A DNA stretch of 64,000 nucleotides from Utricularia gibba (lineage: Eukaryota > Streptophyta > Magnoliopsida > Lamiales > Lentibulariaceae), in the NCBI GenBank assembly GCA_002189035.1, contig NEEC01000029.1, positions 62,001-126,000 of the forward strand, written 5' to 3'. Positions within the stretch are counted from its first letter, which is position 1, and every line of letters begins with the position of its first letter. Positions 1 through 64,000 of this stretch are shown piece by piece. The notes under the pieces were generated by a model. The model saw only the letters and a list, made by a program, of their open reading frames with translations, was not told where the DNA came from and did no database searches. Both the position numbers and the translations under genes were made by a program.

Positions 1-580
1 ACAAGTTATAGAACGATTATTCTATGTTCGACAAGCGAATCAGACTGATGGACTAAAGGAAGCCGTGAAGATACTATCGGATCGGATACACAGGAACACC
101 CAATCCTGCATTCTGCACCTAACAAACAGTCCAACAGCTTGTCACCTTCCAGCCACTGCAATGGCAGAGGATCAGTTCAACATTCATCGGTTTCACCTGG
201 GGTTCAGGTTTGGTGCTTCCAATGGAGTCACAATGCATCAGTTCGAGGGGTTGCTTCGTCGAGTGATGAGTGGAGCCATCCATGACATCCAGCTGAGTTT
301 AAAAAACAGCCCAAGTGTCATCAGGATTCGAGAACTTAGAGGCGGGGAGGAGCAGCGGATTTATATCAGCAGCCAGGAATGCTGGCCATTCCATATATCA
401 TATACTTACCTACTCACTAGAGAAGGAGAAGGGGCGAGATCAGGAGGTGAAGCAATGGTAGGGTTGGAGGAGAATTCGGAGGCTGCCGTCACCACTGGAA
501 TCTCCGGCGAGAAGTGGGAGCACTACGATCCTTTGCTGGCCAGGAGATGGGCCAAACACTTGCATGGACATCGCATTTAG
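1..580 (+). CDS. WAV3/EDA40-like RING E3 ligase, C-terminal fragment
   Basis: This is the 3' end of a gene that starts left of the window; the reading frame is open from base 2 and ends at a TAG at 578-580. The visible ~190 residues match the C-terminal region of the plant RING-finger plus von Willebrand A family that includes WAVY GROWTH 3 and EDA40. Supporting motifs are FHLGFRFGASNG, the IRELRGGEEQRI stretch and the terminal LLARRWAKHLHGHR. In this family an N-terminal C3HC4 RING gives ubiquitin-ligase activity and a VWA domain follows; both would lie outside the window. Family members act in root gravitropism and embryo-sac development. An in-frame ATG occurs inside, but homology continues upstream of it, so it is not the start. 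Confidence 0.75.
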   Translation, partial: QVIERLFYVRQANQTDGLKEAVKILSDRIHRNTQSCILHLTNSPTACHLPATAMAEDQFNIHRFHLGFRFGASNGVTMHQFEGLLRRVMSGAIHDIQLSLKNSPSVIRIRELRGGEEQRIYISSQECWPFHISYTYLLTREGEGARSGGEAMVGLEENSEAAVTTGISGEKWEHYDPLLARRWAKHLHGHRI

Positions 581-968
581 TGATCATGTCTCAGAGTATT
601 TGTTCTGTTAAACTGATAAGAAGGCTTGGGACCTGCTGGCTGAATATAGTACTGTGGCCGGGGTTAATAGCTGTATGAGTTTGAGGTTCCTTATGCAATG
701 ACATAGACACTGCCACTGTTGCAAAGTCCCCTTTCAGCTACACAATTTTTTTCAGACCGCTGAAATTGTTACCCCACAACTACAATCATCCAAAGACAGT
801 GATGACATAGACAATGCCTCTGTTGGCAGCTTATACCGGCAAGATTTTGTGAGAGATTCTCAGGTCTCAAGAACTGAAACTGGGAAGTAGAATCAGACCG
901 GTTTTGGTGGATTTCATGGTCCAACTCCAGGTTTGTAAACACTGATTTGAAGCTGTGCAGCCCTCCTC
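581..968. other. Tail-to-tail spacer, probable 3' UTRs
   Basis: The E3 ligase fragment on + and PANC on - converge here. No ORF or repeat stands out; it most likely holds both 3' UTRs and their poly(A) sites. Confidence 0.5.
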
Positions 969-2144
<1,176 letters not shown>

Positions 2145-2447
2145 TGATTAGATTAGCTGGGAAGCATGCAAGAAGAACTCTGAAATCTTAGCAAGGAGCC
2201 CAGTGGAAAGCAATAAGAATCCATTGAAGGCAAAGCCGCCAATCAATACCGGTTCACTTTCCGAAGCGGTTGAGCACCGGAAACAGCGAGGGTGCGAGTG
2301 AACGTGATGGACATTTTGGGCCGGCTTTGGGCTGTAGGATTTTGACGGAACAGGCCCCGGCAGCCTTAGAAGATCCAATCTATTGCTTTAGAAAACCGCT
2401 CGATTAACCGGTAGTCCATCCATTCTGTGAGCTTCGTCGCATTCTCA
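2145..2447. promoter_or_regulatory. Shared PANC/COX6B promoter with two site II elements
   Basis: Only 303 bp separate the two divergent start codons. TGGGCC at 2317-2322 and TGGGCT at 2328-2333 form a tandem pair of site II elements (TGGGCY), which bind TCP-family factors and are known to drive plant nuclear genes for oxidative phosphorylation. That fits COX6B; effects on PANC are inferred. Confidence 0.6.
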
Positions 2448-3567
2448 ATGGCCGAGGTAATTTCGTATTCCCATCCGCCTTTTTTTCCAAAGCTTTGGTC
2501 TAATCTTCTCCTCAGGATTCATGGTTGATCGGTTTTCGCCTGTCGCCGTAAAAAAATTTTTGGAATTCGAAAGTTCTGATTTGAAATTGTTATTGCTGAA
2601 AGTGTTGCTTGTTTGCATGATATCCCGGCATCAGCTGTTCTTTTTCTAGAGTTTCGTGGATGATTATATTGCATATTGGATCGGTTTTGTGTTATTTCTG
2701 GGTCAGTGATTCCGTTCATGTGAACAACGCGTCCGGCAGGATGTGTTCCGGCTCTGTTGGGTTTCATCAATTTTTCATCGAGATGCCATAAAGATCTGAA
2801 TTTTCGTTTCAAAATTTTCGCAGATTGAGCTAAAAACCGCGCCTGCGGATTTTCGTTTTCCCACCACCAACCAAACACGGCACTGTTTCACCCGTTATAT
2901 TGAGTTTCACAGGTTAGTTTTTGTTAGGAACCACTTGATGCATTTTTTTCCTTTTTGGGTCATATGGTTCCTTCATATTTGATCTTTGAGCCTTTCGTGG
3001 TTGTCAAGTTGGCTTAAAATGTACTTGCTAATAAAAAATTGACCATGCTGGCGTCTTTGCTTGTTATCCATCGTTCATTTTCTCATTTGATGAGCATGAT
3101 GTTAGTTGGCTTCTGATGCCAATGTAAGATATATGTCCTGCTAACTGGTTGTTCGCAATGAGTGTGTTCTTGAGCTTTATTCGTTCTTCTATTGTTATTT
3201 GGGGGGTGCTTTGATTTGTTCCCTGTGAAGTTGGTTATCTTTCCAAGAAGCTGCTGGTCTTTGTACATTGCTATGATACAGCCTTGAACATGAACACTAA
3301 ATCTCATCCAACAATCGACTTGACCTTCTCCCCAGATGCATAGCAGCTAAGGGCGAAGAGTCTGGGGAATGCGATAAATTCAGTAGATACTACCGCTCTC
3401 TGTGCCCCGGCGAATGGGTATGGGATACGCACTCGAGTCCCTTTAATTACATTTCTCCGGCATGACATGGTAAAAGCTAACTGCTGTTCTCCCTTCCCAA
3501 CCTTTGCTTGCAGATCGAGAAGTGGAACGAGCAGCGGGAGAACGGGACATTCCCTGGCCCCCTCTGA
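2448..3567 (+). CDS. COX6B: Cytochrome c oxidase subunit 6b
   Basis: This small soluble subunit of mitochondrial complex IV sits on the intermembrane-space side and helps hold the dimer. Four exons, too short for a simple ORF scan, were found by reading splice sites: 2448-2456 (MAE), 2824-2912, 3336-3417 and 3514-3567, giving 77 residues. The product contains IELKTAPADFRFPTTNQ, TRHCFTRYIEFHRC, the second cysteine pair in CDKFSRYYRSLCPGEW and the terminal WNEQRENGTFPGPL. This is the twin CX9C/CX10C layout of the CHCH-like COX6B fold. The length matches the short plant isoforms (COX6b-2/-3) rather than the N-terminally extended COX6b-1. Splice phases all close. Confidence 0.95.
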
Positions 3568-4354
3568 TCCAACACATGAGTAGCGCCACCCCCATTGTGT
3601 TACAATAAGGTGTGCAAAATCTTCCATTGTGGTTTTATCAATCACTTATGCGGGCTGGCTTTCGTTTAAGACAAAAGATGCAGCCTGCGGCTGTGTGTTT
3701 ACATCGCATTGCAGTGCTTAGTTTCGGCACCGCAAATGGTATGAGAGATTGTTATTTGCGCTTGATCCCATCAAGATCACACCATTGAAGTGTGTTTAGA
3801 ACAGTTTCTTGTTTATTACAGCTTTTGTCATGTACTAATCCATATACTGAAGTTGCCTCCCCCAAAGAAGCATCATATCTCTGTCCAAAAACACTTTCAT
3901 AACCCCTACTGTCTGCGATCCAACAACCCAAATGCATGATTGGCTGCTGTCTGGTTACTTGGTTTTTAATGTTTTAGCAGCTTTCAGAGTTTAGTTGGAG
4001 ATCCAGACAGGTCTCTAGTAGCTTTCAGACATAAATAGGACCTGTTTTATAGACTGCTAATGTCTGGAAGTGGGCTGAGGAAAGAATTGGGCCGTGTAAG
4101 CCCAATTTCAGGCCGAATATGGTTTACGAGCATATCCAACAGATTTTTGCTTGTTCCGGTGCAGCGAGACCAGGTTCTGAAAATAGAGGCGCGTGCATAT
4201 TTCGCATTGTCGACCAATCAAATGTATCCATTCGCAATAACCGATGCGTCCGCACCAACACCCACGCCGCACCTGATCACATATCTTGTTTTCTTGAGTT
4301 TTTTAAGAAATCTACAACCCCTAAAAAAAAAAAATCTGTGCTCAGCTTCAGCCG
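3568..4354. other. Spacer, COX6B 3' UTR and promoter of next gene
   Basis: No supported gene. The region should contain the COX6B 3' UTR and, towards the right, the promoter and leader of the gene at 4355, including an A12 run just upstream of its ATG. Confidence 0.5.
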
Positions 4355-4917
4355 ATGAAGAAGCTTTACCGGAAAACCGCCGTCCACTCGACGCCGTCGG
4401 CTGTTTACGACCATGTCCTCACGTTCTTACCGGCGGCGATGCTCGCTTTAGCAGTGGGACTATCGCCGGCGGACAGGGAAGTTTTGGCGTACTTGGTTTC
4501 ATGCTCACCGGTGAGTTCGGGCGGGGGCAGCGCCTCCATGACCATCCTTCGTCTTTCAACTGCAATTGCTTCCGGTGCTACATGAGTTACTGGGCGAAAT
4601 GGGATTCTTCGTCTAATAGTTTACTGATACACGACATTATCGACGCCTATGAGGAGAGTGTGAGTAAGAGAGACAAGGGGAAGAAGGAGAGGCGGCGGAG
4701 GAAGTGCGTGAGAGAAGCGGGGATTGTCCCTCTGGATGTAGAGATTTCAAATGAGAACGATTCTCTGGAGGCCAATCGTGAAACAAGCGGCCTCGAGGCG
4801 GTGGTGGCCGAGAGGGAAGAAGACAAGGTTCCCGATGAGGGAGAATCGGAAAACGGGCCTGTGAGAAAGTTTGTGAGTTTTCTGGGGGCGAGGATCTGGG
4901 ACGGGCTTTGGGGTTAA
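4355..4917 (+). CDS. Plant-specific protein of unknown function, one frame break
   Basis: I recognise the general pattern as a plant-only, intronless family with no named domain; I assign no function. The N-terminus MKKLYRKTAVHSTPSA precedes a hydrophobic stretch (FLPAAMLALAVGLSPADREV, about residues 24-43). After that comes a cysteine motif, FNCNCFRCYMSYWAKWDSS, then IIDAYEE, a highly basic run (KGKKERRRRK), an acidic tail and a final VRKFVSFLGARIWDGLWG. The first half and the second half lie in different frames. They join if one G is added to the G5 run at 4523-4527, where the serine/glycine linker occurs. The repaired product would be about 187 residues. Confidence 0.7.
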
Positions 4918-6037
4918 AGACGAGGATGGACCATCGGATTCCCCATTTTTGTAGCAGCAGATAAAAGAACAGGAATTTCCCCCGTCCTGTTCATCATCCC
5001 AAGTGTAAAATTTCAATCTTTCTTCATCTTCTTCTTGTTGAGTGAAACGCTCTTCGTTCATCTTCCTCTTTACTGCAACTCGAACGCAAGCTTTTCCTTT
5101 TCTGCACTTTCCGCTTTTCTCATCACCACAATAAATGATTTCTGTTGCGTGATCCTTCTTGGCTTCTTTATGTCAGTTTTTCCTGAGCCATGGTCGCTTT
5201 GGCCCATACGGGTCAGGTAACCCGAACCCACGAACCCATTTGTATAATTATTTATATTATATTATTTTAACCAAATTATCTATTATAAAAATATTTTTTT
5301 GATCTGTATTAATATTATATTTAACAAATATGATTAAAATTGCTAATAATAGGGTTAAATTAGAAGCAAAATGAATTAATATCCAATTGCAATTCATGGC
5401 ATTAAAAACAAAAGTTATATTTATTAATGAGAAAATTGTATCTTAAATTTTAGTTAGTATAAAGATTTAAATTTCAAATTGAAAAAAAATATTTTAAGTT
5501 GTTAAAATTAGATAATGAAACTTATATGTTTTTCAATATTTTTTAAAAGTGAATCAGTTCATGACATCATGAACCTATTCTGGTTTTAAATCTTACAAAT
5601 TTTTGTATTTAAGCTTTTCACATTCGCATTTGAAATTCTACGAATTAAATGATATTCTATTAGGATTATGTCATATTTGTCTCATATCATATAAAGTAAC
5701 GATAATTATATTATATTTAAATTTCATATGATTTAAAATGATAATGATTATATTGTATCTCATGCATATATCGTGATAATAACATTAAAATCAAAATTGA
5801 TTAGTTTTAATAATATGAAATATTAAATATATAATTTCATAAGTTAGATTATAAACTATTTAAAAAAATTTGAAGAATATATAAGGTAATTTTAAAACTT
5901 AAAATTAAACTTGTTATATTGACTGCAAATTATTATATTGCCGACAAACTCCACCCATTTATTAAGATCTTGGTGTTTAAAAAAGTGAAACTTTTCAAAC
6001 CGTTTGGATCAACATCTCTGAACCGGGTTCGTGCCTA
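4918..6037. other. AT-rich spacer
   Basis: The strongly AT-rich core at about 5220-5930 has many poly-A/T tracts and no coding signal. The unnamed gene and the OSCA gene converge on it. No terminal repeats or transposase were seen. Confidence 0.5.
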
Positions 6038-9000: not shown

Positions 9001-9638
9001 TACAATTTTACCGTTGTGAGCCATGTGGAAGGTTTGAAATAGAGAGCTTATCGATATTACTGTACTCTATCCTTCCAGCTCCTTGAGACGTTTCCAAGGT
9101 GTTGTTTGTCCAGTTGACAGGCACTAGAATGGCCCAAGCCAGCAACGTCATGGGAACAAAGATTTTCAGTCTGCAGCATCAATAATTTGCTCAGAAAACA
9201 TAGAAATACCGATTTTTTCCATGTTTTGCTTGAAGCATCAAAATTATGCCAATGCTAATACATGATAGCCAAGAAATAAGACCTATAAAAGTGTGAAATC
9301 ATACTCTGTACTAAAATAGCTTACCCCAGTAAGTAAATTCGTAAATACACAGCTGAGTCCAATCCCGCATGATCAATGAGCTCTGGCTCAGGCATCTTGA
9401 GTGCCTCAGGAACCCAATTAAGAAATCTAATGTATGATTTCCAATCTAGATTGACAAATTTCCGCACAAATGCACCCGAGCTTGAGGGACTGCCCCTTAA
9501 ACCTTTGAGGTACCATTTAGGGAAATACACTCTATCATTGAAGGGTTGAAGTCTTAGGATGGCAAATGCTATGAGGAAAACAAGTGCACTGAGGATGTTA
9601 ACTCCTGCAGCAAGCCCTATATCTCCAAAAGTTGCCAT
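6038..9638 (-). CDS. OSCA1: OSCA1/CSC1-like hyperosmolality-gated calcium channel
   Basis: OSCA proteins are dimeric, TMEM16-like mechanosensitive cation channels that open on osmotic or mechanical stress. Eleven coding exons were traced on the minus strand: 9638-9325, 9170-9012, 8878-8743, 8613-8512, 8174-8055, 7931-7851, 7779-7439, 7361-7116, 7027-6703, 6621-6388 and 6316-6038. All phases close and give 778 residues, normal for the family (~770). Motifs: N-terminal MATFGDIGLAAGVNILSA membrane helix, FNDRVYFPKWYLKGLRGSP, cytosolic ANKLADLVQEKK, the NPTLWLTEWAPEPRDVYW linker, MSKFEGF, VDGWAGVAAEVLRLVPL, DPGSIGFNTGEPQIQLYF and the acidic C-tail followed by VPTKRQSRRSTPAQ. A 5' UTR intron ends just upstream of the ATG. 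The exact OSCA1 paralogue is not resolved. Confidence 0.95.
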
Positions 9639-10945: not shown

Positions 10946-13900
10946 CAGACGGAAATTGGGAATACAGATACCGGAACCCTAACGATGTGATTCAAGCTGC
11001 CCGTTAGCACGATTTCCCCAAATTGAAAATCGTCTCCTGATTCTGTAACCCTAACATGGATGCGTAAGGTTTGCATTTGCTCGGGGGGTAGAGTAAACCA
11101 CACCGGATCGATGCTCACATCGACTCCTTTCGGGGAATAACTCCGGCAATGTAAGTTTCGGGCTTGCCGGCAACGTTTTTTATTACTCTATGTGTGGTTG
11201 CGGTCCCAGAAAGCGCGGTTATTGTCAGCGAAGGCAAGTTCAAGTCGAAGGAGTTGATGAAATGGGAGGAGGAGTTGATGCAGGAGCGTCCGGTGGCGAT
11301 TCTGACTTCATCCGGGCTTGTGTTAGGAAGTGAGCATAAGAAGGAGATGTAGTCTTCGAATTCTGATTCCAAGAGAAGATTTGGTGAACGATTTGAATCT
11401 CAAGCCTGCGCTTTTTGATCCATGGGTAGGAGAAGTACCTGCTGGAAAGACTAGTCCTGGATCCAAGGCTCTGGTAGGATCAACGAGACCTGCACCGAAA
11501 CCGAAGGGAGCAGCCGGGTGCACATTTTGGGGATCAAATCCTTGAGCGGTTATGAGTTCTCCATGGTTGTCGAACTTGGAAGCTGTTGTTGACATGGCTG
11601 ATCCGATAATTGATGAACTCCAGGAGGGGTGCTTTTGTTTGATCGTGGCAGCAATTCCTGCGATATGTGGAGCTGCCATGCTTGTTCCAGACATCAGCGC
11701 GAAATTGTTTCCTGGAAAACGAAGTTACTTTCTTATGAAATGTTTCCCAAACATTTGACCTCTCCGAGTTGAATTGATACCTGAGAGTATCCTCTCATTG
11801 ACACTCATGGGACTCCAAGCAGCCCAAATTTGGTGGCCTGGAGCCAAAATATCAGGCTTCAGTACATCTGCAGGGGTTCTGTTCTGGTTACTGTAATCAG
11901 GGCCTCTGGAAGAGAATCTGCTAACAACAGGTGCTCTGTTCCAATATGAGGCAACTCTGCCCTCACCAATGGCTGCACTACCACAGAATGTTACAGCCTT
12001 CCCTGTACTGTCTCTCTCTGTGTACTCTTCGTAGTATTTCAATATGATCTGCAAAATGAAGAAGCAGGCATAAGCAGGGACTGCTTGGTGCAACTTGCAT
12101 TTCTTGAGTTTAAATACTAATTACCATTGCATCACTGGTTCTTGGGATCAAAATCCCAGGAATAGAAAAGGGGACAGGTTCTGCAATAAAGTCTCCATAT
12201 CGAGGATTGGCAACCAGGACAAAACCTGCGAATCCAAGGCTCTTTGCTGTCTGAACAAGTGTTGTAAGGTTGGATGTTCCATTGTAGAAGCCAGCTGAGA
12301 AACTGCAAATGACCACACTTCCTATAACAACAGAAGGGTCTGGTGTTTCTGAAGATTGGCATTCTTCAATGTGATGTTCCCTCCCTCGGATGTTCCATTT
12401 GCTCTCACTGCATCCTTAGCCAGCACCAGCTTCTTCTTTAACAATCCTCCCCCAAAACTTGGACCTGAATCAATCCATAGTTGAGATTCATTCTAAGCCA
12501 GGATAAGAAAAGGTATTACCTGACAAGCCGACTCCATCAACCTTCTGGCCATTCCCGAGGATAAGAGTGCCAGGATAACTCCTATCTGTGCTACAAGATG
12601 CAACACTAAATGACCAGGGACTGTAAGAGACTACAGAATAAGGACCCGGTCCTTTGTTTCCAGCAGCTTGAGCTATGAAAACTCCAGCCCGGCGTGCGGA
12701 CAACATGAATATGTCGAAGAAGCTGAGAAATGTGGCCGTGTCCTCTGGCGGTTCATCAGGTCCTATGGAGAGAGTTAAGATGTCCACCCCATCTAAGGCT
12801 GCCTGCATACCAGCAGATCATGTTATGTAACAAATCCTTCTATATTCTTTAGTGGTTGCTTGGATGGATGCTCACTTGCTCTATTGCTGCTAGCACATCT
12901 GCTACAGTCCCAACTGTTGGATATATAGCTTTGTATACAGCAATTCTGTCGAACATATACAGAGAGCTGATGCCCAATTGCTTGGGTACATGCAAATAAG
13001 CAAATTTAAACAATGAAGTTTGCTCTTTGAACCTTGCACGAGGTGCCATTCCGCTAGCACGGCCGTAGAAGAAATTGTCCACCACCACCGGAACCCCATA
13101 GTTCCCGGCGGCTATAGATGCGACATGACTGCAAATAATCGAATGATGAAAAATTGCATGAGAATAAGCACCGGTTTTGAAGTATGCACCTTCCATGTCC
13201 GACGGCGTCAAACGGTGACAAAATATCCACCGTCGGGTCAAGGGCTGCCACGGCTTCAGCTCCCATCGAGAAAAACCGTGCAGACACGATCTTCCCATTG
13301 CAAGAAGATGATGGAAACAGTGGGCCCTCCTCGCAGGCTCCAGAAAAGTGAGAAACATCTGAAGTAAACGGATCAAGGGGATCATGAGCAAAGCTGGGAT
13401 TGGCAGGGTTTATTCCAGAATCCACCACTCCGATCACGACCCCTTCCCCGGCATCCCTGTCGCCTCCCTTCTCCGCCCAGACGGCCGGCAGGCCCAGGAA
13501 TTCCGGTGTGTGACTCGTCATTGACTTCACTCCTCTATCCTTCTCCACCACCCTCACTCCAAGGCGCGCCTTCATCTTGCTAGCCTACGGAGTAAAAATT
13601 TCTTATAACACGTCCGTCCAAAACGGAGTAAAAGTCGAACCTGAGATGGGGTAGTGTGGACGGCGAAGCCATTGACGATGTGCTTGAAGTCATAGACCTT
13701 GCTGTAGGTTCCCGCCGCCAGACTCTCCTCCAGGAACCTGTCGTGCGATTCCACCAACTCGCTCCGGTAAGCCGCAGCAGCATCCCTGCAGGGGAAAGGA
13801 GTTTTTCGTAATTATGTTATATTAATTTTGATAAATTGTTTTATTTCTATAATAATGAGAATAAAAGCAACAATCAAACTCAATGTTTACAACTTACTTT

Positions 13901-17591: not shown

Positions 17592-17717
17592 TTCCAATGC
17601 CACATGATGTACGCAAATAAATTTCTGCAACTTTTCCAAGTAAGAAAATCCTACCATCGCACTCCTAGTCTATATATTGTGCATCCATCTAACTACTAAT
17701 CATCTCTACGACTGAGT

Positions 17718-20072
<2,355 letters not shown>

Positions 20073-22814: not shown

Positions 22815-23370
22815 ATGGCCATGGGTCGGAAATTCCCAACAAGCAGAAGTGAGCGCTACCTAGGAAGCTTGGGCGGCCAGTTCACATCCAACGCTGCGTC
22901 GGAGCTCGAGGAGGGCGACGTCTGGGGGATGTTAGACAACGTGGATCTCGCCGACGCACACCGTGGGTGGGCCTCACACGCCGCCGTGCAGGGGGCCCGT
23001 CGCCAAGGTTCCGGCGGCGTGGGAGGGCTGTCGCAGGAGTTCCGTGGCTCGGGGGCGCCAATTCATCCTCCCGGACAATCGTCCGATCGGCGGAGACCCC
23101 CGGCGATCCAACGTGGCGACCTCGGCGCCGGTCAACGTCCCCGATTGGTCGAAGATTTACAGGGTGGATTCGGTGGAGTCCTTTCATGAACTGGAGGATG
23201 AGGATCTTTTAAATGAGTCGGAGATGGAACCCCCACACGAGTACCTGGCGCGTGCGTACGCAACGAGCCGGGCAAACTCGGTGTTCGTTGGCGTGGGCCG
23301 GACCCTAAAGGGTCGGGACATGAGCCGGGTTCGGGACGCCGTTTGGAGCCAGACCGGATTCGACGGCTAA
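22815..23370 (+). CDS. S40/DUF584 senescence-regulator-like protein, frame break
   Basis: Intronless gene of the plant S40 family (DUF584), nuclear proteins linked to leaf senescence and stress; their biochemical role is unknown. The C-terminal half carries the family marks APVNVPDWSKIYRV, EMEPPHEYLARAY and the diagnostic VGRTLKGRDMSRVRDAVW near the stop. The N-terminus MAMGRKFPTSRSERYLGS, with the ELEEGDVWGML motif, lies in another frame. The switch falls at about 22,948-22,990, in a very G-rich stretch. Here the shift needs one base removed (or two added), unlike the other broken genes in the window. An intact product would be about 184 residues. Confidence 0.85.
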
Positions 23371-31548: not shown

Positions 31549-31630
31549 ATGCGCGATACAGTGATTCGGAATGTGGATATCTCCGCCGCCGTAGAAAGCC
31601 GGAGGAAATGGAGTTCGTTTGAGGAGGGGG

Positions 31631-32962
31631 ATGCATCCGGAGATGGAGATGGAGGTGGAGATGGAGAAGGCGAAGGTGCCTGCGATTTGGTTCAAGGTAC
31701 GGAGGTCTTTGCAGTGTAAATCGGAACCTGGAGATGTTCACGAGCCTAGCGGAGGCGGCGGCATTCCGAGTAAGAGATCTGGTCGAGATGTGTGCGGTTG
31801 TTCGAGGTCGATTGCGAATTTGAAGGATGTGGTGATTCACGGGAGTAAGAGGCACACAGCGCGGCCGTCGATGTGCAGCCCTAGATCTATCGGAAGCAGC
31901 GAGCTTCTGAATCCGATTACTCATGAGGTTGTGCTTAGCGATTCGTTTTGTGAGCTTAGGATTAGAACTGGTGGTGGAGGTGAAACCGTGTCTGGATTTG
32001 TGGGTATGTTGAAGCCGGGAACGCCGGGACCGGGGCGGTTACACACCGGTGGATGTCAGAAGGCGGGGATTATGGGAAGCCCTGTCCGCCGCACATCCAG
32101 TAGCTTGTCGAGGCGGAGTCATGGGCTTGGTGCTGTTTCTCCACGGCCGAGAAGCTCCTTTGGATCGGATTCTCGCGGTGCACTTTTTTGCCCTAAATGC
32201 GGCGAGCAATTCCTTCGTTGGGAAGCCGTTGAAGAACACCATCTCTCCAAACACGCCGGTAATTTCATCGCATTCGCATATCCCAGTCCATTTCTCTGTA
32301 TCCCCTGTTTCGTCTATTCTTAGATCTTGCGGATTTTTCCAGTCACGGAGCTTGTAGAAGGAGACTCGTCACGAAGAATCGTTGAGATCATCTGCAGAAC
32401 GAGCTCCAGTCGATCGGAAAAGGGAATCGAGAGAATCCTCAAAGTTCACAATATGCAGAAAACATTAGCCCAATTTGAAGAATATCGAGAACTGGTGAAA
32501 ATCAAAGCAAGCAAGCTCTCCAAGAAACACCCACGATGTCTCGCCGATGGCAACGAGCTCCTCCGTTTCCACGGCGCTTCTCTAGAATGTTCCCTCGGCC
32601 TGAAAAACTCCTCCAGTCTCTGCACCTCGGAGAACTGCCGCGTCTGCCGGATTCTGAGAACCGGGTTTTCGACCAAGGAGGAGATGTTAACAGGGGGGAT
32701 CGGAGTTTTCACGGCAGCAACCAGCACAAGAGCATTGGAATCGATTCAGACACTCGACGGGAATCCCAGAAAAGCACTCGTTGTGTGCAGAGTGATCGCC
32801 GGAAGAGTTCACCGGGCACTGGAAAATGTACAGGAAATGGCGGGGCAATCGGGTTTTGATTCCGTTGCCGGAAAAGTTGGAGTTCAGGGAAACGTCGAAG
32901 AGCTGTATCTACTAAGCCCAAGAGCCTTGCTCCCTTGCTTCGTCGTCATCTACAAACTCTGA
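31631..32962 (+). CDS. C2H2 zinc-finger protein with PARP-like C-terminal region
   Basis: Two exons, 31631-32258 and 32343-32962, give 415 residues. The start is an ATG opening a Met/Glu run (MHPEMEMEVEMEK); internal ATGs nearer to VPAIWFKVRRSLQCKSEP are also possible and closer to Arabidopsis relatives. One C2H2 finger is visible in FCPKCGEQFLRWEAVEEHHL (C-X2-C ... H-X3-4-H, completed by SKH), and the intron falls immediately after it. The second exon carries the conserved VTELVEGDSSRRIVEIICR, KKHPRCLADGNELLRFHG, GVFTAATSTRALES, VVCRVIAGRVHR and the terminal LLSPRALLPCFVVI. That half resembles the ADP-ribosyltransferase (PARP) fold found in the At5g54630-type proteins; activity is not established. 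Nuclear role inferred. Confidence 0.9.
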
Positions 32963-33571: not shown

Positions 33572-34371
33572 ATGAATCTCAGGAGGGGAAATGGGTCGGA
33601 TTCCGATGCGGAAAACGACGGCAAATTCAAGTCGAAGAACCTCAAGGCGGAGCGGAGGCGACGCAAGAAGATAAACGATCGGCTCTACGAGCTACGCTCT
33701 TTGGTTCCCAACATCTCCAATGTGGGGACTCTCTTCATGTTCCCGTTGTGTCCGATATCGCAACTGCGCTTACTGTTGCTTGGTTGATGCAGATGAACAA
33801 GGCTGCCATTTTCACCGATGCCATTGAGTACATTGAGAAGCTGAAGCAAACTGTGGAGGAGTTGAGTAGCCAACTGAGTGAGATGGAGGAGACCAAAGTG
33901 CGCATCTTTGAAGAAGTTGAGAACGATTTTAAGTATCAGCAGGAGATGAGAAAGTGGGGGATACAAGTAAGCCATCACTACCATGGTCTCAAAAGTGTTA
34001 TCTTTTTTTTCGATCATTCTGGTCTATCGTTTGATTATAGCCGGAAGTCGAGGTGAAGCCGATGGGAGGAGGGAAGCTGTGGATCAAGATTGTGTTTTTG
34101 ATGAGGAGAGGGGGGATCACAAGACTGATGGAAGCAGTGGAAGTGATGGGTTTGGTGTTACTGAGGCAAGCATCACTGCATCAAGAGGGGCGTTTCTAGT
34201 TTGTTTGGCAGCTGAGGTAATAACTACTGCTTCTGTTGTACATAGAATCTGTGAGTTTGAGTGTGGTTGCATTCTGTGCAGGAGAGTCATGGTGGTGTGC
34301 TTGATCACAATCCTGATCAAGTTAGGAAGTTCTTATGGGAAGTTATTTCCCTGAAGAAAGCTCAAGATTAA
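33572..34371 (+). CDS. DYT1: DYT1-like bHLH transcription factor, one frame break
   Basis: DYSFUNCTIONAL TAPETUM1 and its rice and tomato counterparts (UDT1, MS10) switch on the anther tapetum programme. Exons: 33572-33721, 33793-33966, 34041-34216 and 34282-34371. The basic region and helix 1 read FKSKNLKAERRRRKKIN and DRLYELRSLVPNISN. Helix 2 follows after the first intron as MNKAAIFTDAIEYIEKLKQ, then a leucine-rich coiled coil. The C-terminal ACT-like region carries KLWIKIVFLMRRGGITRLME and, in another frame, VTEASITASRGAFLVCLAAE. The two frames join if one G is added to the GGG at 34148-34150; otherwise the product stops about 50 residues early. This region is needed for dimerisation in the family. 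It converges on FQR1 with 168 bp between stops. Confidence 0.87.
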
Positions 34372-38867: not shown

Positions 38868-38904
<37 letters not shown>

Positions 38905-40696: not shown

Positions 40697-42681
<1,985 letters not shown>

Positions 42682-43017: not shown

Positions 43018-44241
43018 TTAGCTGACCAGGTCCGAGTCTTTAGCCTGGCTATCCACAATGAAGCCTGGAAATATCATTGTAATGTCCCTGCCAAAACACA
43101 AGGTTCCGAGTTCGGTGTTGAATTCGATTTCGATTGTAAGTAGCAACAAAGAAAGAGATGGATACCAACCTGAGGTGGGGAATGGTTATGTTACTGATAA
43201 GAGAAGGATACTTGGCAACAAGCAGTTTCCATTCTTCAAAGTCTATTTTCCCCTTGTGTTTCAGATCAGACTCTTGCATCGTCTGCAACACAACCATAGC
43301 GCTTGTTAGAGAATCAAGCTTCAAACCACATCTTGGAAGAAGAAGAGTGATGGTTTGAACGCTACCCTTTCGACTATTACATCCACTTCTTCTTCAGAGA
43401 GATGCAACTCACAATCACTGACTGCAGCCAGCAGCATTTTCTTCAACTGATATTGATAAAAAAAAAAAGAAGCGGTTATATGCCAAGAGAATATAGGATA
43501 TAGGTGGCTGATGGCTTGATACTCACCCCTTCTCGTTCGATATACCCTGTACCCATCACATCATACAATCTGAAAGCAACTGCAGAGAAGCAAACATATC
43601 CTCTGCATCAGCCTCAGGTATAAAAAAACTATGTTGTATGAGGAATTTTTGTCACTCACAGGCTACTTTATCTGATCTCGGTGTGTCAGGGTGGAAAATG
43701 TTTAATGTGTGAACGAATTCTCCGAACTCGATGACCCCATTAACCTTGAGATCAAAGAGCTCAAATAGCTAAAACAAAGAACTTTGGTTAAATCCTTGCG
43801 CAGAAGTGCCAAAATATAAGCAAAAGGCATAAACAAACGCAGAACCTTTTCAGCAAGCAGATTCTTCTTGCTGCTATTATTATAAAGTGCCATCAAGAAC
43901 TCTTCCTGTGGCAAAAGTATCACAATTGAAAACTTGAACAAATAAAGGATCTTGGAATCAGGGAACACTACTGATCTAACCGAAGTTGTACCTTGTGAAT
44001 TTTACCATCATTGATCAATGAGCGGCTTACTTCATCGAACAGTTTATGGAGAGCCTCCACTTGGTTCAGAGTAACTGCGAAAACCCATAACTCAGAAGCC
44101 GTTTAAAGAACCACCAAAAAGCAGGTCTAGAACATGACAATGACGACTCACACGCTGTTGCAGAAGCAAGGGATTCGAGTTCCTGCAGATCGGGGGACCC
44201 TTAACCTCTGTTGGTTTAAAACAACACAATGCTTTAAGCAT
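43018..44241 (-). CDS. CBL: Calcineurin B-like calcium sensor (CBL), one frame break
   Basis: CBL proteins bind calcium through four EF hands and recruit CIPK kinases to membranes. Eight exons on the minus strand: 44241-44152, 44074-43992, 43905-43846, 43768-43660, 43579-43527, 43446-43366, 43282-43170 and 43087-43018. Visible are [93 protein letters not shown] and [11 protein letters not shown]. The start [17 protein letters not shown] is in a different frame from [14 protein letters not shown]; one extra base in the run of five at 44192-44196 joins them. The start is therefore inferred. A Cys pair near the N-terminus could be acylated; no MGC myristoylation motif is present. The CBL subtype is unresolved. 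Confidence 0.88.
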
Positions 44242-46177
44242 ATTTTAGCAAATGAACACCAACTTCCTGCGAAAGTCAATGAACGAATTCAGGAAACCCA
44301 AAAGAAAGAACTTTGCCTCAAACCCACAAACCGTACCATCCTTCTTCAACTCTTACAGAGACGGGTAGTATTTGATTCAGGAGAATCAAGTGAAATACTC
44401 ACCAGTCACCACGCAGTATCCGCCCCACTCAACACTTGTTCTCTGTAGCTGAATTGACCATCCCCTCAACAAGTGGCTAACCTTTTATGAACAATTTGGC
44501 AATATACCATTTTTTTGTGTTTTCCGCCTCTGACTAAATCTCCCAGTTGCCTTCAATCGGGGATACCTCCATCGCACACAGAAGACTTGGCGGTTATGTC
44601 AATATACAGTTTGATTTTCCCATCTACATTAAATAAAATAAATTGACCATGAAAAAAGAATATCAATTATTTACTCCATTTAAATATAATAAATAAGGAG
44701 ACGAGAATATACTGAAGCTAACTAAAACTTCTAGCTTCAAATAGTGTCGTTTCAAAAACAATTTTGGTATCAAATATAAATAATTTTATATTCAATGTAA
44801 TGCTAGAAATCTTGTAAATATATTTTACATTCCTTAAAAAGAGAGAACATAAAAATATAAAAATAGTATGTACGAAGTGAATAATATCATATAAGTAGAA
44901 GATTTATTGTTAAATTTTTTTAAAAAAAATATAGAGATTTAATATATATTTTATTAAAAATATTTATAAGAAATTATATTTTTTAATAAAATGGAAATAT
45001 ACACCATAATCTTTTTCCACGAGTTTGACTTTGCGGGGATCCGCTTCACGCCACGTGTCCCAAGAATAGTGGTCGACATTTTTTCTATTGGTCCACAAGT
45101 TGTAATTTTCTATATAGGTGGATATATACCTCGAAAATTAAATTAAAAAAATAGAATTAATACTATACTTTGCACCTTGGGTTATTATTAACCCAAACAT
45201 GGTACCACTTGCTCTGCGTCAATGTTATAAATATATTTCGATCTTAAAAAGATAATCGCCCGATCACGACGAATTCGAGTAAATCTGTAAAATTGACGAT
45301 ATTAATTAAAATAATAATATTTTGAAAATGTCAAATTAGCATATTCCCTCTTGTGTCCTGTAGCATCACAGCATGCATGCACAAGCACGGAAACTGGTGG
45401 CGGAGGGATTTTTTTAACCAATGAAATATAAAATATTTGATTAATAAATTAGTTTGACATTATAAGGGTAATTTAGGAAATCAAAAAAAGTAAATGGGCT
45501 TATTGACCTGGGCTCAAGTTTGAGCCTAAGCCTGACTATTTTAAATAACTATTAAATTATAAATTACTTTAAAAATAATTTTATTATCAAATATAAATAA
45601 TTTTATCACATAAAACTCAAAAACTTAACTAGTATTTGATTGATGGAAGTTAAATAAAATAAATTTAATATAGAGAAATTAATTTTTTTGGATAACATTT
45701 ACTTATTGAAATTAGAAATGAAATTAATTGGTTTTTAAGTAAAGCAAAAGAAGAATGTGATTTAAAATAAAACTCTAAATAAGAAATTAAAAAACGCATG
45801 TAATCATGAACATATTTCATCTTATAATTTATAATTTTACTTTTAAATCTATATGATCTCATCAATGAAAAATACTTTTAGAAGTAGTTATTTTTAAGAT
45901 GTTACAAAATTTATTTTCTACTCTTTGAAAATTATTTATCAAAAAATATTTTTCAATAAGTTATACCAAGCATAACCTAAGATTCATATATATTCATGTT
46001 TTTGAATTTTCTGAAGAATTCCTATGTATGATGGATTCTACAAAACCCATACAGAAAGTAACAAACCAATAAGCAATATGAACTTTACATGTTGCTATCA
46101 ATGGAGTTGTTCAACCTACCTTGAAAGTGATCCTGAAAGTAGGCCAGTGGGCAATGATGGCAGCAAATCTGTGTTCA
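44242..46177. other. AT-rich spacer
   Basis: Mostly AT-rich (44,620-45,950), with no ORF of note. An ABRE-like CCACGTGTCC occurs at about 45,051. The CBL promoter lies at the left; the PPR 3' flank lies at the right. Confidence 0.5.
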
Positions 46178-47995: not shown

Positions 47996-48877
47996 ACTGG
48001 TTCTCTACATCACTCACCACAACCCATGTATAGCAAAAGAAGCACAAAAGCGAATGTACTTCTTGCAGAAACAAAAAAAAAGTGATCGTTTAGTAAATTC
48101 TATATTACTTATTTGTCTTTGCATGAAGGAAATCCAGAAATCACCATTGCTCTGTACATGCGGGGACTTGAGAGTTACATGAAGCAACTTCAGCCACATG
48201 ATTCCGGCTCCTCGTGGATAGGATAACATCGGCTCTTGATAAATGGGCCCCGCAGAGAGCCATTTATTATTATTTTTTTCTTTTGTGGTGGTATCATTTT
48301 GGGCTTCACCAAATTTGTCCAAATGCCAGGTCCATTAAAGTGAGGTCCAAATTCTTTCAATCTGATAATTATTTATAATAGAATAAATACAAAATAACAT
48401 TTTATATTTATTTAAGATATATTCCAACAGTTTTCAAAATAACTCTAAAAAATGATTTTGTATAAATGTTTTTTTGAAGCAATTTGTATTTGATCCACCA
48501 ACTTCAAAAATATAGAAGCAAAACTTGTTTATTGTAATTTATTTAATACAAAGTTTTTATTTTTAATGATATTACTAATTTATCCTCATTAATTATTGGA
48601 ATTAAAATAAAGTGAGGGTAAAATAAGTAATTATATTTAAAAAATGCTTCATTTTTTATAGGAGCACGGTATCTCAACTTATCAAAAAAAAAAAAAAAAA
48701 TTACTTTGAAATTGAAACAGAAACAATGCATATTTTATCCGAAAATCAATTTTAAAAATATTTTTATTGAATTTGGAGTTGTATCAAAACCCACTCTTAT
48801 TATCCTTGTTTGACAAACGCGACTTTATTGAAATTGCAGTGGAAGGAACGGTATCTCCTCCGGCGGCTAGATCGGAT
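47996..48877. other. PPR promoter and PLR 3' flank
   Basis: Mixed composition to 48,350, then AT-rich with an A17 tract at about 48,684. No coding signal. Confidence 0.45.
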
Positions 48878-55479: not shown

Positions 55480-55614
55480 AACTTGGTAAAAGCACACTAA
55501 CAGGTTTCAAGCCTAACGAAATACATGGAGAGGAGACGGTGAATCCAGCAATGCAGATTCTTACACCGTTGAAGAAGGAACTCAAACCAGAACAGCAGTG
55601 TTCTTCTGTAACAG

Positions 55615-58394
55615 TTAGGCCGGTACAATGTCATCATCTGGATCATCTGTTTTTTTCTTTGCCTTCTCCTTCTCTAACAAGTAGAGTCTTTCCGCTTCTG
55701 GCATGGATGTGATGATTGAATGGAGTTGCAGGTTGATTTCATCGATCTTGTCCATTAATCTTCGGTTAGTGAACATCCCCTCGAGCACAAGTTTGATTGT
55801 TGCCCAGCTTTCTATTAGCGGTAAGGCAATGATCACAGCTGAACCAATTGTACCCCAAGCAATGGCTACAACTGCCCACAGTCTGAAGTACCCTTTGCTG
55901 AACTCCCCTGCAAAACCAGAGGAAAAAAGGATGATCACTTCTGAAGCATCATCAATATTTAGTCGTGGATCGAAGCTTGCCTGCAGGGAGTGTGAGAATC
56001 GGCCAGAGGACGACGATGACGAGGGTGAAGCCGATACCCCACTTCACTATCCATCTCTTTGCTCCGATCAGCTTCTCCTCGAACTCGTCGGCTGCCAGGT
56101 GGCTCTTATCGTCCTGCTCAACGAGTTTGATCTTCTTAGTTGTTTCCCAGTCGTAGTTTTGAGGCCACATGAAACTGCAAACTCCATGAACCAACCCGCC
56201 AACAAGTATGGAAACAAGGTTTCCGGCAAGCATCGGCGCGTTTCTCCCGGTTGTGTCGAGGTTCACTCGGCCGTACTCCACTTTTGTGACTGTCAGCCAT
56301 GTTATGATTCCGAGGACACACCCGGAAACTGTACCAAGAATTGCACCATAGCTATTTGCTTTCCTCCACAGCAGCATGAAAGCTATGGGGAGAACAGCTG
56401 AACCGATGAAGACTCCCATTGCCAAGTACATCCAACCCAAAGAAACTCCAGCTTTGTTCAGAATCACTGCCAGGATTCCCATCAAACACCCGAAGATCAG
56501 AATGATAATTCTTGACACTCTGAGAATATCCTTCCCAGTGGCATTCGGGTTGATGTAAGTGCGGTAGATGTCATATGTGCACAGTGAAGAAACAGCAATC
56601 AGCTCAGAGGAGCCAGCAGATGTCACAGCCCTGAATCAGTTTCAGCAAACGTGTGTCATTGATCAAGATCGAAAGGCTAATGTTCTCTGAAATCTACTGA
56701 TTTTTAAACCCCTACATGAAAAGCATTGTGAGCAGAAGAACAGAGCCTCCTTTCCCCATCAAGGCAATGGCGGTGGCCGGAGGCACGAGCCCGTGGCCAG
56801 CTTCACTTGCTGTTAATGGCAGATCCAATGCTAATGCTCCAAGGCCGAGTGATGTTGCTAAAGAAAATGGCACAGCGAACCACACTAAGCCTCCCAATAA
56901 GTAGCCCTTGTGAGTTGAAGATGGCCTTGCAGCAATGGCGCTGATCCAGTATCCCTGCACTTCTTCCTCGTCAGAAGATGAAACCAGATGGATTCGACAC
57001 TGAAGAATGTTAAGATACTCACGTTGTCGACAAAAACCGTTCCGAAATTCCCGACAATGTTGATGATGCCGAACACTAACCCTCCTGTGCTCATCATAGT
57101 GATGTAGGAGCCCCCACGGTTTCCGCTTACAGGCCCACAAGCTTGCCCCAGATTGGAGATGGGGAATTCACAATTCCTCGATCTACTCGAAACCTCGAGC
57201 AAACGCCGGTAAACGATATCCGGGCTGCCAAGTTTACTACTACCCGCGTATACAAGAAACACAAAGACGACCAAGACAACATGAACTGCAATAAAACAGT
57301 TGTTATGGTCCTCCGAGAAAACTGTTAACGCATCTTGTAACTAACCTATAACAGAGTGGATGTAGCTTGCCAAGAAGGTAGCTTTCAGCCCACCGGCAAG
57401 AGTGTAGACAATGACACCAAGAGGGATTAGGAAACTGGCGGCGTAGATATTGACGCCGGTGAGGGCATTTACGACCGCGGATCCGCCGAGAAGAAGCATC
57501 GCAGTGACGATTATGTTTGTCATGAAACAGAATACAAGAAACACCACATGGGCTGACGTCCCCCATCTGAAAGCGCAGGTTTTTGAAATAAATGAAGCAA
57601 GCTGGAGAATGGAATCATTGAACGAAATGGGGCAGAAAATTGAGACCTGGCCTTCACGATTTCGCAAACTGTATGGGCGTTTGGACTTTTCGCTTGATTT
57701 CAATGGCCATCACCCCAAACAAGAGCACCTGTTGGTTGATTTCATTAGTCTGCTACGTCATAGTTGTCCTATTCTTACAACAACAGCGGGGAAATGGGCG
57801 TGCCTGAATCGTAGCGCCGCTTGCATACCAGAAAGGTCCGCTGATTCCATATTCCCAGGCAACGTTCGAACTTTGCAAGATTGTAGCAGCCCATGTCCAC
57901 TGAAACATACAAGTCAACGACTTTCCTTAATTGTAAAAGACTGGAGGAGCAAGAGTGTTCTTCTTCACACTGTTTTTGACTTGTGACTGGGGGAAATGGT
58001 TTGTTGATCACGAATAAATAGTACCTGGGACACGATGACACTCGCAATGAGCCCTGTTTTAACAGTTCTCCCAGCCGTGTTGAACCACTCGGAGTTGTGG
58101 CGAGAACCCACATACTTCTTCTCCAGCCACACCTAGATTCCACTCCCCAAAAGAAATCGATTAGGTCCAAGAATTGAATCCGGGAGAGAGAAAGATTCCG
58201 TCTTGACGAACCAGAAAAGAAGTGAAGACTGCGAAAAATGCACCAAATCCCAGAATCACAGAATACCCAACTCCCTGATTCAGCACAGCCTTCCCCCCGA
58301 AGAAGCTGCTGTCCCTCACGCATCTTCCTCCAACTTGTTGATAATATTTCCCTGCGAAATCCAACGGGGGACAGCTGCCCATCATCCCAGCCAT
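55615..58394 (-). CDS. DUR3: Urea-proton symporter DUR3, one frame break
   Basis: DUR3 is the high-affinity urea/H+ symporter of the plasma membrane (sodium:solute symporter family). Nine exons on the minus strand: 58394-58212, 58132-58025, 57899-57804, 57728-57647, 57566-57346, 57285-57023, 56954-56716, 56630-55981 and 55907-55615; about 711 residues if repaired. Conserved blocks are [82 protein letters not shown] and [20 protein letters not shown]. The frame breaks after EIKRK in exon 4; one extra base in the run of four at 57687-57690 restores [14 protein letters not shown]. Introns 3 and 8 begin with GC (CAG|gcacgc and CAG|gcaagc); the second fits the GC-AG consensus well. Confidence 0.93.
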
Positions 58395-60618
58395 GAAATC
58401 CGCAGATTACTGGAGTGCCAGTTCACTCCCAGATTCAAGAATCATGCCTCTCTTTTAAATAATCCAGAGTCAGAGGTTCGGATTCCGATGACGACCGCGC
58501 TACTCTTGTCCTTAATCGGCGCTTGGCCAATGAGTGAGATTTGACTTTCGGTTTTCGAAATTGCAAACTGGGAGATGACGCCTCCTGCCAAGTCCTGATT
58601 GGCTGCTCACCCCCTCAACATCCCTGAAAATCCTCCAAGAGCCATACGCCGGGAAACGAACGCCAAAAAACGTCATGGCTCTTGAGTTAGTACACAGCTC
58701 ATAACCATTTGAAATCGCAAATATCTCTCTTAACACTCAAGACCCGAACGTGGGGATTTCAACGGTTATTTTTGTCCCTTTGTGTCCTTCCTAGTGACCT
58801 TAGTCTTGGATCATACATCTCATTCCTTTTTTTTTTTACCCAATTACTTTTCATTTCACATAATCATTTTCTAAATTTCAGAAATTTTTAAAAATTAAAA
58901 TTGTATATTTTTTTTGATGAGACATCCAATGTAACTACATCTGCTCAAATTTGCTTATCTTTTAGGGTTGTCAATGCAGGGCAATTCCAAAAGTCAAAGA
59001 AGAATTATTTTAGTGGGCCCTTCGCGTATTTTTTTTATTCAAAATTTCAGAAGATTCAATTCAAGAAATCGGAATCGTATATGAACAAACGAATGACGCT
59101 TGTTGATTCCGTGGCATGAAAGGTGTCCTTCCTCTATTGGTTAGAGCAGGGCCAGGCTAATCACCCCTCCCTCCCCACTTGCCAAATGGGACAAAAAAAG
59201 ATTATGATATAAAGTTTCTATTTCGGGTAATAATTTCAAAATATAGCTCGAATTTAATTTAAAATGTAATTATTGAATAGGGCTGGGAGGCCCATGGATT
59301 GATAATAATACATCATCTTAAAGCTATCGTGTTGGGCCAAAGAGCCCATAGAGCCGTTACGAGTGACAAGAAACTGGGCATATGATAACGAAAACAATTG
59401 GGCCGGAGGTCGAAGAGAATCCAATAAGGAAAATATTGGCCAAAAACACTCTATAAATAATTTTTTATTACATATAAACTATTTTTATTAATATAATTTT
59501 TAAGAAATTGAAGAAATTTACGAACAATAAGCATTTTTTTTTCCAGAGACAGAATTAAATATTTATTTTTACACTCTAAGAAATTTGTTTTTATAATACG
59601 TATTGTCATAGACATTCGTTATCTTAGTAAATAAAACGAAAATTACGACTTTAGAATATTTTAAAATTATGAGAATTGATTTTTGAGATGTGTTATTGTA
59701 ATTTGGATACCATTTTGTTGAAATTTGGACTAGTCAAAAGGCTGGGGGGCATTCAACGGTTAAAATTGATGTAGGGGTCATTAATGAAAATCAGGAATTC
59801 ATTTTCCATAATTTCGTGTGGACTTAACTTTGTGGTCTGTGTACAACTTATGAAGGAAAAGTCAGCTTTGGCCTTCATATGCCCCTGCAAGCAATTTCCT
59901 AGAATTTATGGACTGAAATGGAAAAACATGCTAACTTGGGGGACTTTAAAGCCACTCGTCAAAAATATGTTACGTGAGACTTAAGAGTCAACTCGCCCAT
60001 TAATTTATCTTACATTCAGTTACATTTTTCCAAATAAATATTATAAAATCATTATAATTGAAAATTAACCAAAACATTACTGGTTTCAATTCTTATTAAT
60101 CGAATTTGGTATATTGTGTCTGTGAGGTCTTATTCTAAACAGATATTTTAATTTAAACCTATTTTAGATAAATTTACTATTTATGGAAAACTAAGAGGAT
60201 GAAGTATTTTGTTTTAAATATCTTATATATAGGAGATTTTCTGTAATTTAAAGTTATGTTTAAAATTATAGAAATAGTTTTAATATTGCAAAATTATATT
60301 ATAAAATTTATTAAAATTTAAAGTTTAATATATTAAACTATTATATTACTTAATAGTATGATTAAAGAAAAATTAATCATAATTGACTCCATTTACGGTT
60401 TGTATAGGTGGATGGTTTTGATTGGCGTGTCGGATTCTATGCCACAGCATGCGATTTATTTTAGAAATTATATTAATTTCAATGTCGCATTAATGGGAGT
60501 TGACAATTTATTAAGACTAATTTTGTAATGAATTGACTCCATTTAATTCAGGTATGCGATTGGCTGTAGAAGAGAAGTGAATATAAAATGGAATATTTAA
60601 AAGTAAATATTAGGTAGC

Positions 60619-60628
60619 ACCACGTGGT
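60619..60628. promoter_or_regulatory. Palindromic G-box upstream of AOX
   Basis: ACCACGTGGT, a perfect 10-bp palindromic G-box about 210 bp before the AOX start codon. It is a likely bZIP/bHLH site, consistent with the known stress induction of AOX genes. Confidence 0.5.
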
Positions 60629-60748
60629 AATACTTCCTTAATGGTGAGCCATGGGAATTCTACAATTAAAAACAGGCATATTTGGATTTTAACCGGTCAG
60701 CGTATCTGACGGTCATGATTGGACCATAATGGACGCTCCAGATTCGTC

Positions 60749-60756
60749 TATTTAAA
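60749..60756 (+). promoter_or_regulatory. TATA box of AOX gene
   Basis: TATTTAAA, 80 bp before the chosen ATG, giving a leader of about 50 nt. Confidence 0.55.
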
Positions 60757-60835
60757 CCCTCGCTGTGCGTTGGTAAGCCCTGTCCAGGAGCTCATTACGA
60801 ATCTTGTTGTCCAGGCTTTCCCGGAGAGGAGAAGA

Positions 60836-62097
60836 ATGGCGACAAAGATGGCAGTAATGGCTCTCGGCCGGCGTTATTTTTCCACCGCCATGGCGACTGG
60901 CGGAGTCGTGAATCATGTGGCGGGGATTCGCTGCGCCAGCGCTCCGTTTTCTGGGAAATTTGGGGAGAGAGTGGCGTTTGCGTGGGCGAGGGCACCGATT
61001 TTGGGGGTGCGTCGCTCGAGTGCGCTGGCGATGGACGAGAAGGAGGCGACGGATGGTGGAGAAAATGAAACGGTTGGAGCTGGGAACAGGAAACTGGAAG
61101 TTACGAGTTATTGGGGAGTTGAGCCTTCGAAGGTTGCCAAAGCCGATGGAACGGAATGGAAGTGGACTTGTTTCAGGGTAAGAACACGATTCCCAGGAGA
61201 ATCTTCTTCATTACACTTTTCAATTCGATTCACTGAACGGATTCTTGTGCGGAAGCGTAGCCATTGGATACCTACAAGGCGAACCTGACGATAGATCTGC
61301 ATAAGCACCACGCGCCGGTCAAGTTCATGGACAAGGTGGCGTATTGGACTGTGAAAACTCTGAGATATCCCACAGACATATTTTTCCAGGTCATCTACAT
61401 GTTTACAAACTGTTTGTTTGATCCTTGGATCTCCCTTTTACTCTCTGTTGTTAAACGGCGCCTCCCTGTACAGAAGCGCTACGGGTGCCGTGCAATGATG
61501 CTGGAGACGGTGGCCGCCGTGCCGGGAATGGTGGCCGGGATGATCCTCCACTGCAAGTCCCTACGGCGGTTCGAACACAGCGGCGGGTGGATCAAGGCCC
61601 TGCTGGAAGAAGCTGAAAACGAAAGAATGCATCTAATGACATTCATGGAAGTATCTCACCCAAGATGGTACGAGCGCGCTCTGGTCTTCACTGTGCAAGG
61701 CGTCTTCTTCAACGCCTACCTGTTGGCATATCTCCTGTCCCCGAAGCTGTCACACAGAATCGTGGGGTATCTGGAGGAAGAAGCAGTTCATTCTTACACC
61801 GAATTTCTCAAGGAACTCGACAAGGGAACCATAGAGAACGTCCCTGCTCCAGCCATCGCCATTGACTACTGGCAATTACCACCTGGTTCGACTCTCAGAG
61901 ACGTGGTTATGGTCGTCCGCGCAGACGAAGCCCACCACCGCGATGTGAACCACTTCGCCTCCGTAAGTGGCGCAGATTTCCGATGAGTTAAGTTTCATGG
62001 GGATCCACCATTCTTACGAAATGTGTGTTTCTCGCAGGATATTCACTGTCTGGGGCGGGAACTCAAGGACATTGCAGCTCCATTAGGGTATCACTGA
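60836..62097 (+). CDS. AOX: Mitochondrial alternative oxidase (AOX2-like)
   Basis: AOX is the di-iron ubiquinol oxidase of the inner membrane that bypasses complexes III and IV. Four exons, 60836-61177, 61261-61389, 61474-61962 and 62038-62097, give 339 residues. A presequence ([16 protein letters not shown]) comes first. The iron ligands are in [35 protein letters not shown] and [13 protein letters not shown]. Regulatory CysI is in WKWTCFR and CysII in [10 protein letters not shown], so redox and 2-oxo-acid control should be kept. Conserved W in the usual RPW(D/E)TY, at the exon 1/2 junction, is Leu here (RPLDTY; TTG for TGG). [11 protein letters not shown] and [10 protein letters not shown] favour the AOX2 subfamily. 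An upstream in-frame ATG at 60719 lies before the TATA box, so it was not used. Confidence 0.95.
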
Positions 62098-64000
62098 ACA
62101 CAGAGACAGCGGGAGGTTCAGGATCCACCGTCCACCGGAGACGCATAGGATACGCCCCAAGAACACGACAGCTCGAGATATGGAAGACTATTTGCCACTG
62201 CCATCGAGCTCTATATCTTTCCTTTTTCTTCAATAATAATATTTTAAATCACATATCTGATTTCATCGAATAATTCAAATTAAAGTTATATTCAAGAATT
62301 TAATCCTAAAATTTTAAAATTTCATCATAATACCTAATAAAAAATTTTGTTTGGTTTGAAATCAAGGTTAGTTCACAATTCAATTTTTAAAAATTTTGAA
62401 AATTGTTTAGGTTTTTATTACATGATTTTGATAGCTTAATGTGTTTTTTTCCGTAATTTTGAAATTTGAAATTTAAACTATTTATACTGATATAGACTTT
62501 AAATATAAAAAAACGAATAATTCAATTATTTCATTACATATACCGTTTTTCGGCGAAACAACTATTGGGCTCCATCGGGCCGGACAGCTCATCGCAGAGG
62601 TCATTTTCTAATAACATTGCACGGAATAAAAAAAAATATTAATTAATAAATAATAGTATCTGAGTGGGATGGATTGATGATAATGAACCAACAATAACAC
62701 GTCACGATTTCTTGGAAACTCCGGTCATGGATCTGATCCACCTCAACAAGCCGGACGTGCGGCGGCGCCGGCGGCCCTCCAGGTGGTGCGCCGGACAATG
62801 GCTCGTCTGGAATCAAACAAGGATGAGCAGCTGTGGCATTCTTACAATTTTGTTAGTATTATAGGATCATCATCATCATCGACGTCAGGTGTTCAATGAA
62901 AGGAAGCTGCCAACAAACCGGGGATTAGGACAAAAGGAACCAACTCCCTCTACGTGTAACCCAGCAATAATTGCAAGTCTGATATAACACCTGGTTCACA
63001 ATCTAGTGTAAATTGGTTTCGATCTTCCAAATATTTTAGGGTCAAAATTGTCGGAACTGGAACGAAAACAAGGTGTGTAGTTTTTCGTCGTCCCCGGTTT
63101 TCTGAAACCTCCGGGAGGTAGCGGTTAGCACACAGCATGGTTTGGGAGTCTGGGTTTTGAATCGGAGCTCGAGGAATTGTGACACGAGTCGGATAGAGGA
63201 GGAGCCTCAGCCACATGAATTAGTAGCAGTAAACTACAGTGGCGATAAGTTCAGATTCTTTTTTTTTAAATTTCGTTAAGGGGGCTAAATGCAAAGCACC
63301 TGCGATAGAGCAGACGTTAAATCATGTCGGCTGCTTGACCCGGAGCCGACGCCATGGACGAGACTAGTGCATCTGCTCCAGTCTCGTTTCCTGTTATAAT
63401 TAAATATGGAGCCAGTGACACGTGTCCTGCTGATGCCTGCACGATACCCCCCAATCCGTGTCCGACATGACCCGCTGAGCTTTTTCACCTTGCAGTAAAG
63501 GAATGTAGGTTTGAGGTAAGTGGGGTGCTGCGTTTTCACAGCGGTGGCTGAGGATTAGGTTTTTGAGCGTTCAACAGTTCAGCCATTGCTGGGTTCATAG
63601 CTTTACGTCCGATCCCGATCAGGAATCTCGGAGAGGGAGACCCCAGTAGGTTAATGCGCGGTAGGATGTGTTGAGAGTGTGACCTCTGGGATCACAGGCC
63701 AGGATATCTTCTTGCTGCGTCCCCAGCAAGTGGCCTGCAAAAGGCCAATTTCCAACTTTTCCTGTTGGAATGGCTCCTGGTTTCCGTCACGTGGTCGTCT
63801 ACTCCAAGTTCCCATTCCCGCCACACCTTCTTTTAATAACTTAACCCAGATACACAGATCTATACATTGACGTACGTGGCGGCTCCGGCGGGCGGCGGTG
63901 TACCAACTTGATTAGTGTGTGTGTTGGTTTTCTTTTCTTGAGATACCAACTTGGTTTATTTTGATCTCGGCTATAATTCTGAAACTTTATTGGAATTGTA
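62098..64000. other. Unannotated right end
   Basis: 62,220-62,660 is AT-rich. A GC-rich island at about 62,690-62,830 is open in two plus-strand frames but matched nothing I know. 62,880-64,000 has mixed composition, short ORFs only, and a short ATC repeat near 62,866. A gene fragment or the promoter of a gene to the right is possible. Confidence 0.4.

Follow-up and report, generated by a model that had tools for sequence, protein, structure and literature searches.

Nine frame breaks in seven genes of a Utricularia gibba contig, read as consensus errors that each dropped one base

Introduction

Across long-read assemblies in general, homopolymer deletions are known to make false pseudogenes (PMC12007338), and 561 single-base homopolymer deletions were counted in the PacBio consensus of Enterococcus faecium ATCC 700221 after Quiver (PMC4888979). 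The Utricularia gibba assembly has been described as PacBio-based, for a genome of 82-100 Mb (PMC10663240). From size, contig number and type of error, we infer that PacBio long reads lie behind the assembly considered here, which comprises 100.09 Mb in 516 contigs, the first of them 8.5 Mb long. The window, i.e., the whole stretch of 64,000 nucleotides that was analysed, corresponds to positions 62001-126000 of contig C508.

The frame breaks found in the window are closely related to these described cases. As in the PacBio RS/CLR consensus (PMC4888979), one base is lost in a short homopolymer, the reading frame is broken and contiguity is unaffected. Unlike the E. faecium case, the setting is a plant draft assembly, the bias towards G/C runs is strong, and the losses are known from the assembled sequence alone. 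The Kastor study (PMC12007338) likewise describes intact genes that are annotated as pseudogenes through homopolymer deletions; it deals mainly with nanopore assemblies of bacteria, in which A/T runs dominate, whereas G/C runs are mainly affected here. Duplicated plant pseudogenes also present frame breaks in recognisable coding sequence, yet the true pseudogenes of this assembly, such as an alpha-tubulin copy on contig C1, combine several lesion types, unlike the genes of the window.

We are highly confident that each of the nine breaks described below is a leftover consensus error in which the assembly dropped a single base, and the seven genes themselves are most likely intact. In the proposed mechanism, the consensus caller would have written short homopolymers one base short, mainly G/C runs with a true length of about 4-7. 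The finding is thus almost certainly an artefact of the assembly and of minor interest for biology, to be taken as a quality warning and not as new biology. Gene loss, pseudogenes or short introns inferred from this assembly may be misleading at G/C-rich coding runs, and gene-loss claims that depend on a single frame break need to be checked against reads.

Frame breaks in the window

Breaks were located by three-frame translation and by the codon positions of homologous peptides flanking each site. The preliminary description had listed eight frame switches in seven genes, all but that of S40 at or next to a short run. The switches do exist in the sequence as written: three-frame translation and flanking homology confirm them for all seven genes, and every run named in that description is found at its position in the window. 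The number of events has to be corrected to nine, since the S40 gene holds two: PANC, an unnamed plant gene at 4355, the DYT1-like bHLH gene, CBL and DUR3 carry one each, and the subtilase and S40 genes two each. At all nine sites, the codon positions of the flanking peptides are offset by 2 modulo 3, which means that one base is missing at each. The earlier statement that one added base restores the frame in seven of eight events therefore holds for those seven but is too narrow, as all nine breaks, S40 included, require a single base. Coding sequence is highly conserved on both sides of the breaks (e.g., DUR3 compared with a solved DUR3 structure), although "perfectly conserved", as first worded, is too strong. 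Nonsense substitutions and larger deletions are absent from the lesions of the seven genes, which consist of one-base losses only.

The PANC gene (1077-2147, minus strand) is the sole copy recovered in a search of the assembly. PANC is required for vitamin B5 synthesis and is essential in other plants. Its break lies at 1807-1811, a run of five G on the sense strand (C5 as written), and splits the Pfam domain PF02569, of which positions 2-96 and 100-162 fall in successive frames, leaving too little space for an intron. The gene at 4355 breaks at a G5 run (4523-4527, plus strand), a site across which its duplicate on contig C213 stays in frame. In the subtilase gene (minus strand), the C-terminal break (11132-11135; C4 on the sense strand, G4 as written) divides the fn3_6 domain PF17766, whose positions 1-41 and 38-99 are read in successive frames. 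The break in the PA domain of the same gene falls at GGGAGGG on the sense strand (12379-12385, CCCTCCC as written), PF02225 being matched in the downstream frame. A subtilase paralog on contig C3 was considered as a reference for both sites and proved uninformative, being a truncated fragment.

S40 had been set apart as the exception to the one-base pattern, a view that its C213 ohnolog contradicts. Alignment to this ohnolog and the path through the three frames place two single-base losses on the plus strand, one at a G5 run (23051-23055) and one at a C5 run (23097-23101), with PF04520 matched in the last frame. Between the two breaks, the third-frame peptide GGANSSSRTIVRSAETP matches GGNPESRRIVHQFRSPKTP of the ohnolog.

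The break in the DYT1-like bHLH gene (GGGTTT, 34148-34153, plus strand) lies inside the ACT-like domain, leaves no gap for an intron and coincides with the end of a weak PF22754 match. In CBL (minus strand), the break is located at 44192-44196 (C5 on the sense strand, G5 as written), within the N-terminal exon starting at 44241. Support for the upstream frame of CBL comes from an N-terminus that begins with ATG in the other frame (44241). This break is less secure and dependent on the exon model, as splicing to an acceptor shortly before the run could leave the frame intact. The DUR3 gene (55615-58400, minus strand) is the sole SSF-family match found in the assembly, and a DNA search gave no match elsewhere in it. 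Its break falls at an A4 run on the sense strand (57687-57690, T4 as written), and the alignment to the solved DUR3 structure 9j7c runs across it without a gap. The neighbouring DUR3 intron at 57731-57804 apparently starts with GC and not GT (a GC-AG intron), if the frame is kept. The interval 31629-32962, considered as a further break, was ruled out; it holds an intact C2H2 zinc-finger gene, whose 84-bp intron (32259-32342) is of the ordinary GT-AG type.

Run length and base composition

The preliminary description had noted that a run of 3-5 identical bases lies at or next to seven of its eight breaks. The runs are indeed present, but a run of at least three is found in 42-78% of random coding intervals of 12-30 nt, so this criterion alone says little. 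The real signal is in the G/C runs. Across 17.2 kb of coding sequence in the window, with approximate exon limits, 5 of the 26 G/C runs of at least five bases are broken, compared with 1 of 73 runs of four and 2 of 285 runs of three, an enrichment that grows with run length as homopolymer deletion predicts. Only 1 of 125 A/T runs of at least four is broken, and all runs other than the longest G/C class (G/C of 3-4, A/T of at least four), when pooled, account for four breaks in roughly 480. G/C runs of at least four make up 2.5% of coding bases yet hold six of the nine breaks, for which P is about 2e-8 if breaks fall at random over coding bases. The DYT1 and subtilase PA-domain breaks count against this reading, as they sit at runs of only three.

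Redundant contigs as an internal control

A direct view of the consensus is provided by contig C251 (29 kb), which repeats part of contig C244. Over the shared 9,750 bp, three substitutions and six indels separate the two, and each indel is a difference in homopolymer length: C4/C3 twice, C6/C5, G5/G4, A10/A9 and A14/A12. Separately assembled copies of the same DNA thus disagree at homopolymers, as would be expected of consensus deletions. Three of the six indels are coding, and in each case it is the copy whose G or C run is shorter that loses the frame. An LRR gene is broken in C251 and intact in C244, while one pectin methylesterase is broken at one run in C251 and at a different run in C244. 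Because the two versions differ almost only in homopolymer length and the shorter one breaks the frame, the shared technical cause proposed in the preliminary description is shown directly for this pair; the same loss in essential gene families elsewhere supports it further. The pair could also serve as a free internal measure of the consensus error rate.

A whole-window DNA search of the genome, run in three pieces, returned a diverged ohnolog block on C213 but no redundant contig for the window, and the window's own runs are therefore without a second assembled version for comparison. This block (C213, 515000-638000) is syntenic with the window in inverted orientation and probably dates from an old whole-genome duplication. 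At the DNA level, it gave no match to PANC, DYT1, CBL or DUR3. The ohnologs on C213 carry one-base losses of their own, two in S40, one in the gene matching that at 4355 and one in the C2H2 gene, and at these sites it is the window copies of the three genes that stay in frame.

One-base losses elsewhere in the assembly

Thirteen further one-base losses were identified on eight other contigs, comprising the C213 cases, the coding cases of C251 and C244, and losses in HSP70 and CCT3 genes. All 13 have the same sign as the nine of the window, in keeping with the single-base, one-sign lesions expected of homopolymer deletion. Alignment to close paralogs places the HSP70 losses on contigs C451, C496, C255 (two) and C1. 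They are most simply read as G4 to G3 (C451), C4 to C3 (C496), G6 to G5 together with one event outside any long run and not pinned to a particular run (C255), and G4 to G3 (C1). In a CCT3 exon on C413, a run reads G4 against G5 in the paralog. The losses thus extend across the genome and reach essential genes (HSP70, CCT3), at an uneven rate. The 30 kb of PPR coding sequence checked contain no break, compared with nine in 17 kb of window coding sequence, and none was seen in matches to histones and genuine tubulins. The window was considered as a local hotspot, since its rate exceeds those of PPR and HSP70 genes; no special local cause is claimed, because C213 and C251/C244 genes, in small samples, are affected to a similar degree. 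Two other candidates were set aside, namely a CCT gene on C412, where the apparent frameshift is a short intron, and gaps between chaperonin copies on C2 and C451, which are mostly non-coding sequence or alignment noise.

Alternative explanations

Parallel gene death, in which the seven genes would be recent pseudogenes of a shrinking plant genome, is highly improbable. The genome is indeed small, with many duplicates lost, and genuine pseudogenes do occur in the assembly. The alpha-tubulin copy on C1 (5059200-5060300) combines several frame changes with an in-frame stop and represents a true pseudogene rather than an error. A tandem HSP70 copy with a non-homopolymer lesion (TTT to AT), identical in contigs C304 and C241, is probably another. 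The mixed lesions expected of pseudogenes, including nonsense changes and larger indels, do not appear in the seven genes, where nine one-base losses out of nine, six of them at G/C runs of at least four, come without a single nonsense change or larger deletion. Gene death would moreover remove PANC and DUR3, whose single-copy state argues against it; it would leave both S40 ohnologs null through different lesions and, outside the window, both assembled copies of one methylesterase. A narrower version, in which one or two of the breaks are real mutations (most plausibly the DYT1 or the subtilase PA-domain site) and the rest are errors, is unlikely. It draws on the rarity of breaks at runs of three (2 of 285) and on the real lesions of this genome, in the HSP70 copy and the C1 tubulin. 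The breaks in question nevertheless match the others in sign and size, and one HSP70 event on C255 also falls outside a long run. There is likewise a slim chance that a few genes, such as DYT1 or DUR3, have been truly inactivated by real one-base deletions hidden among the technical errors; if so, the loss of such a gene from a rootless aquatic plant would be informative.

The genes might also work as written, with the frame restored by programmed frameshifting, RNA editing or micro-introns, given that ribosomes or polymerases can slip on homopolymers. This is scarcely credible for the window. A programmed shift site should be conserved in relatives, whereas the C213 ohnologs of S40 and of the gene at 4355 keep their frame across the sites that are broken in the window and need no shift there, which leaves programmed frameshifting unsupported. 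The affected genes are unrelated, breaks with zero gap leave no space for introns, and the redundant contigs C251 and C244 disagree on run length. Consensus deletion error thus remains the preferred reading of the nine breaks.

Further observations on repeated sequence

Contigs C241 and C304, which share the HSP70 lesion, are identical over about 3.5 kb bar one A-run difference, and C241 seems to be without about 3.5 kb between the HSP70 copies. Within the window, the A/T-rich interval 5440-5965 has about 30 copies in the genome at 67-79% identity and looks like a dispersed repeat. The intervals 45657-45876 and 48433-48788, with many genome matches at 68-83% identity, are probably dispersed repeats as well.
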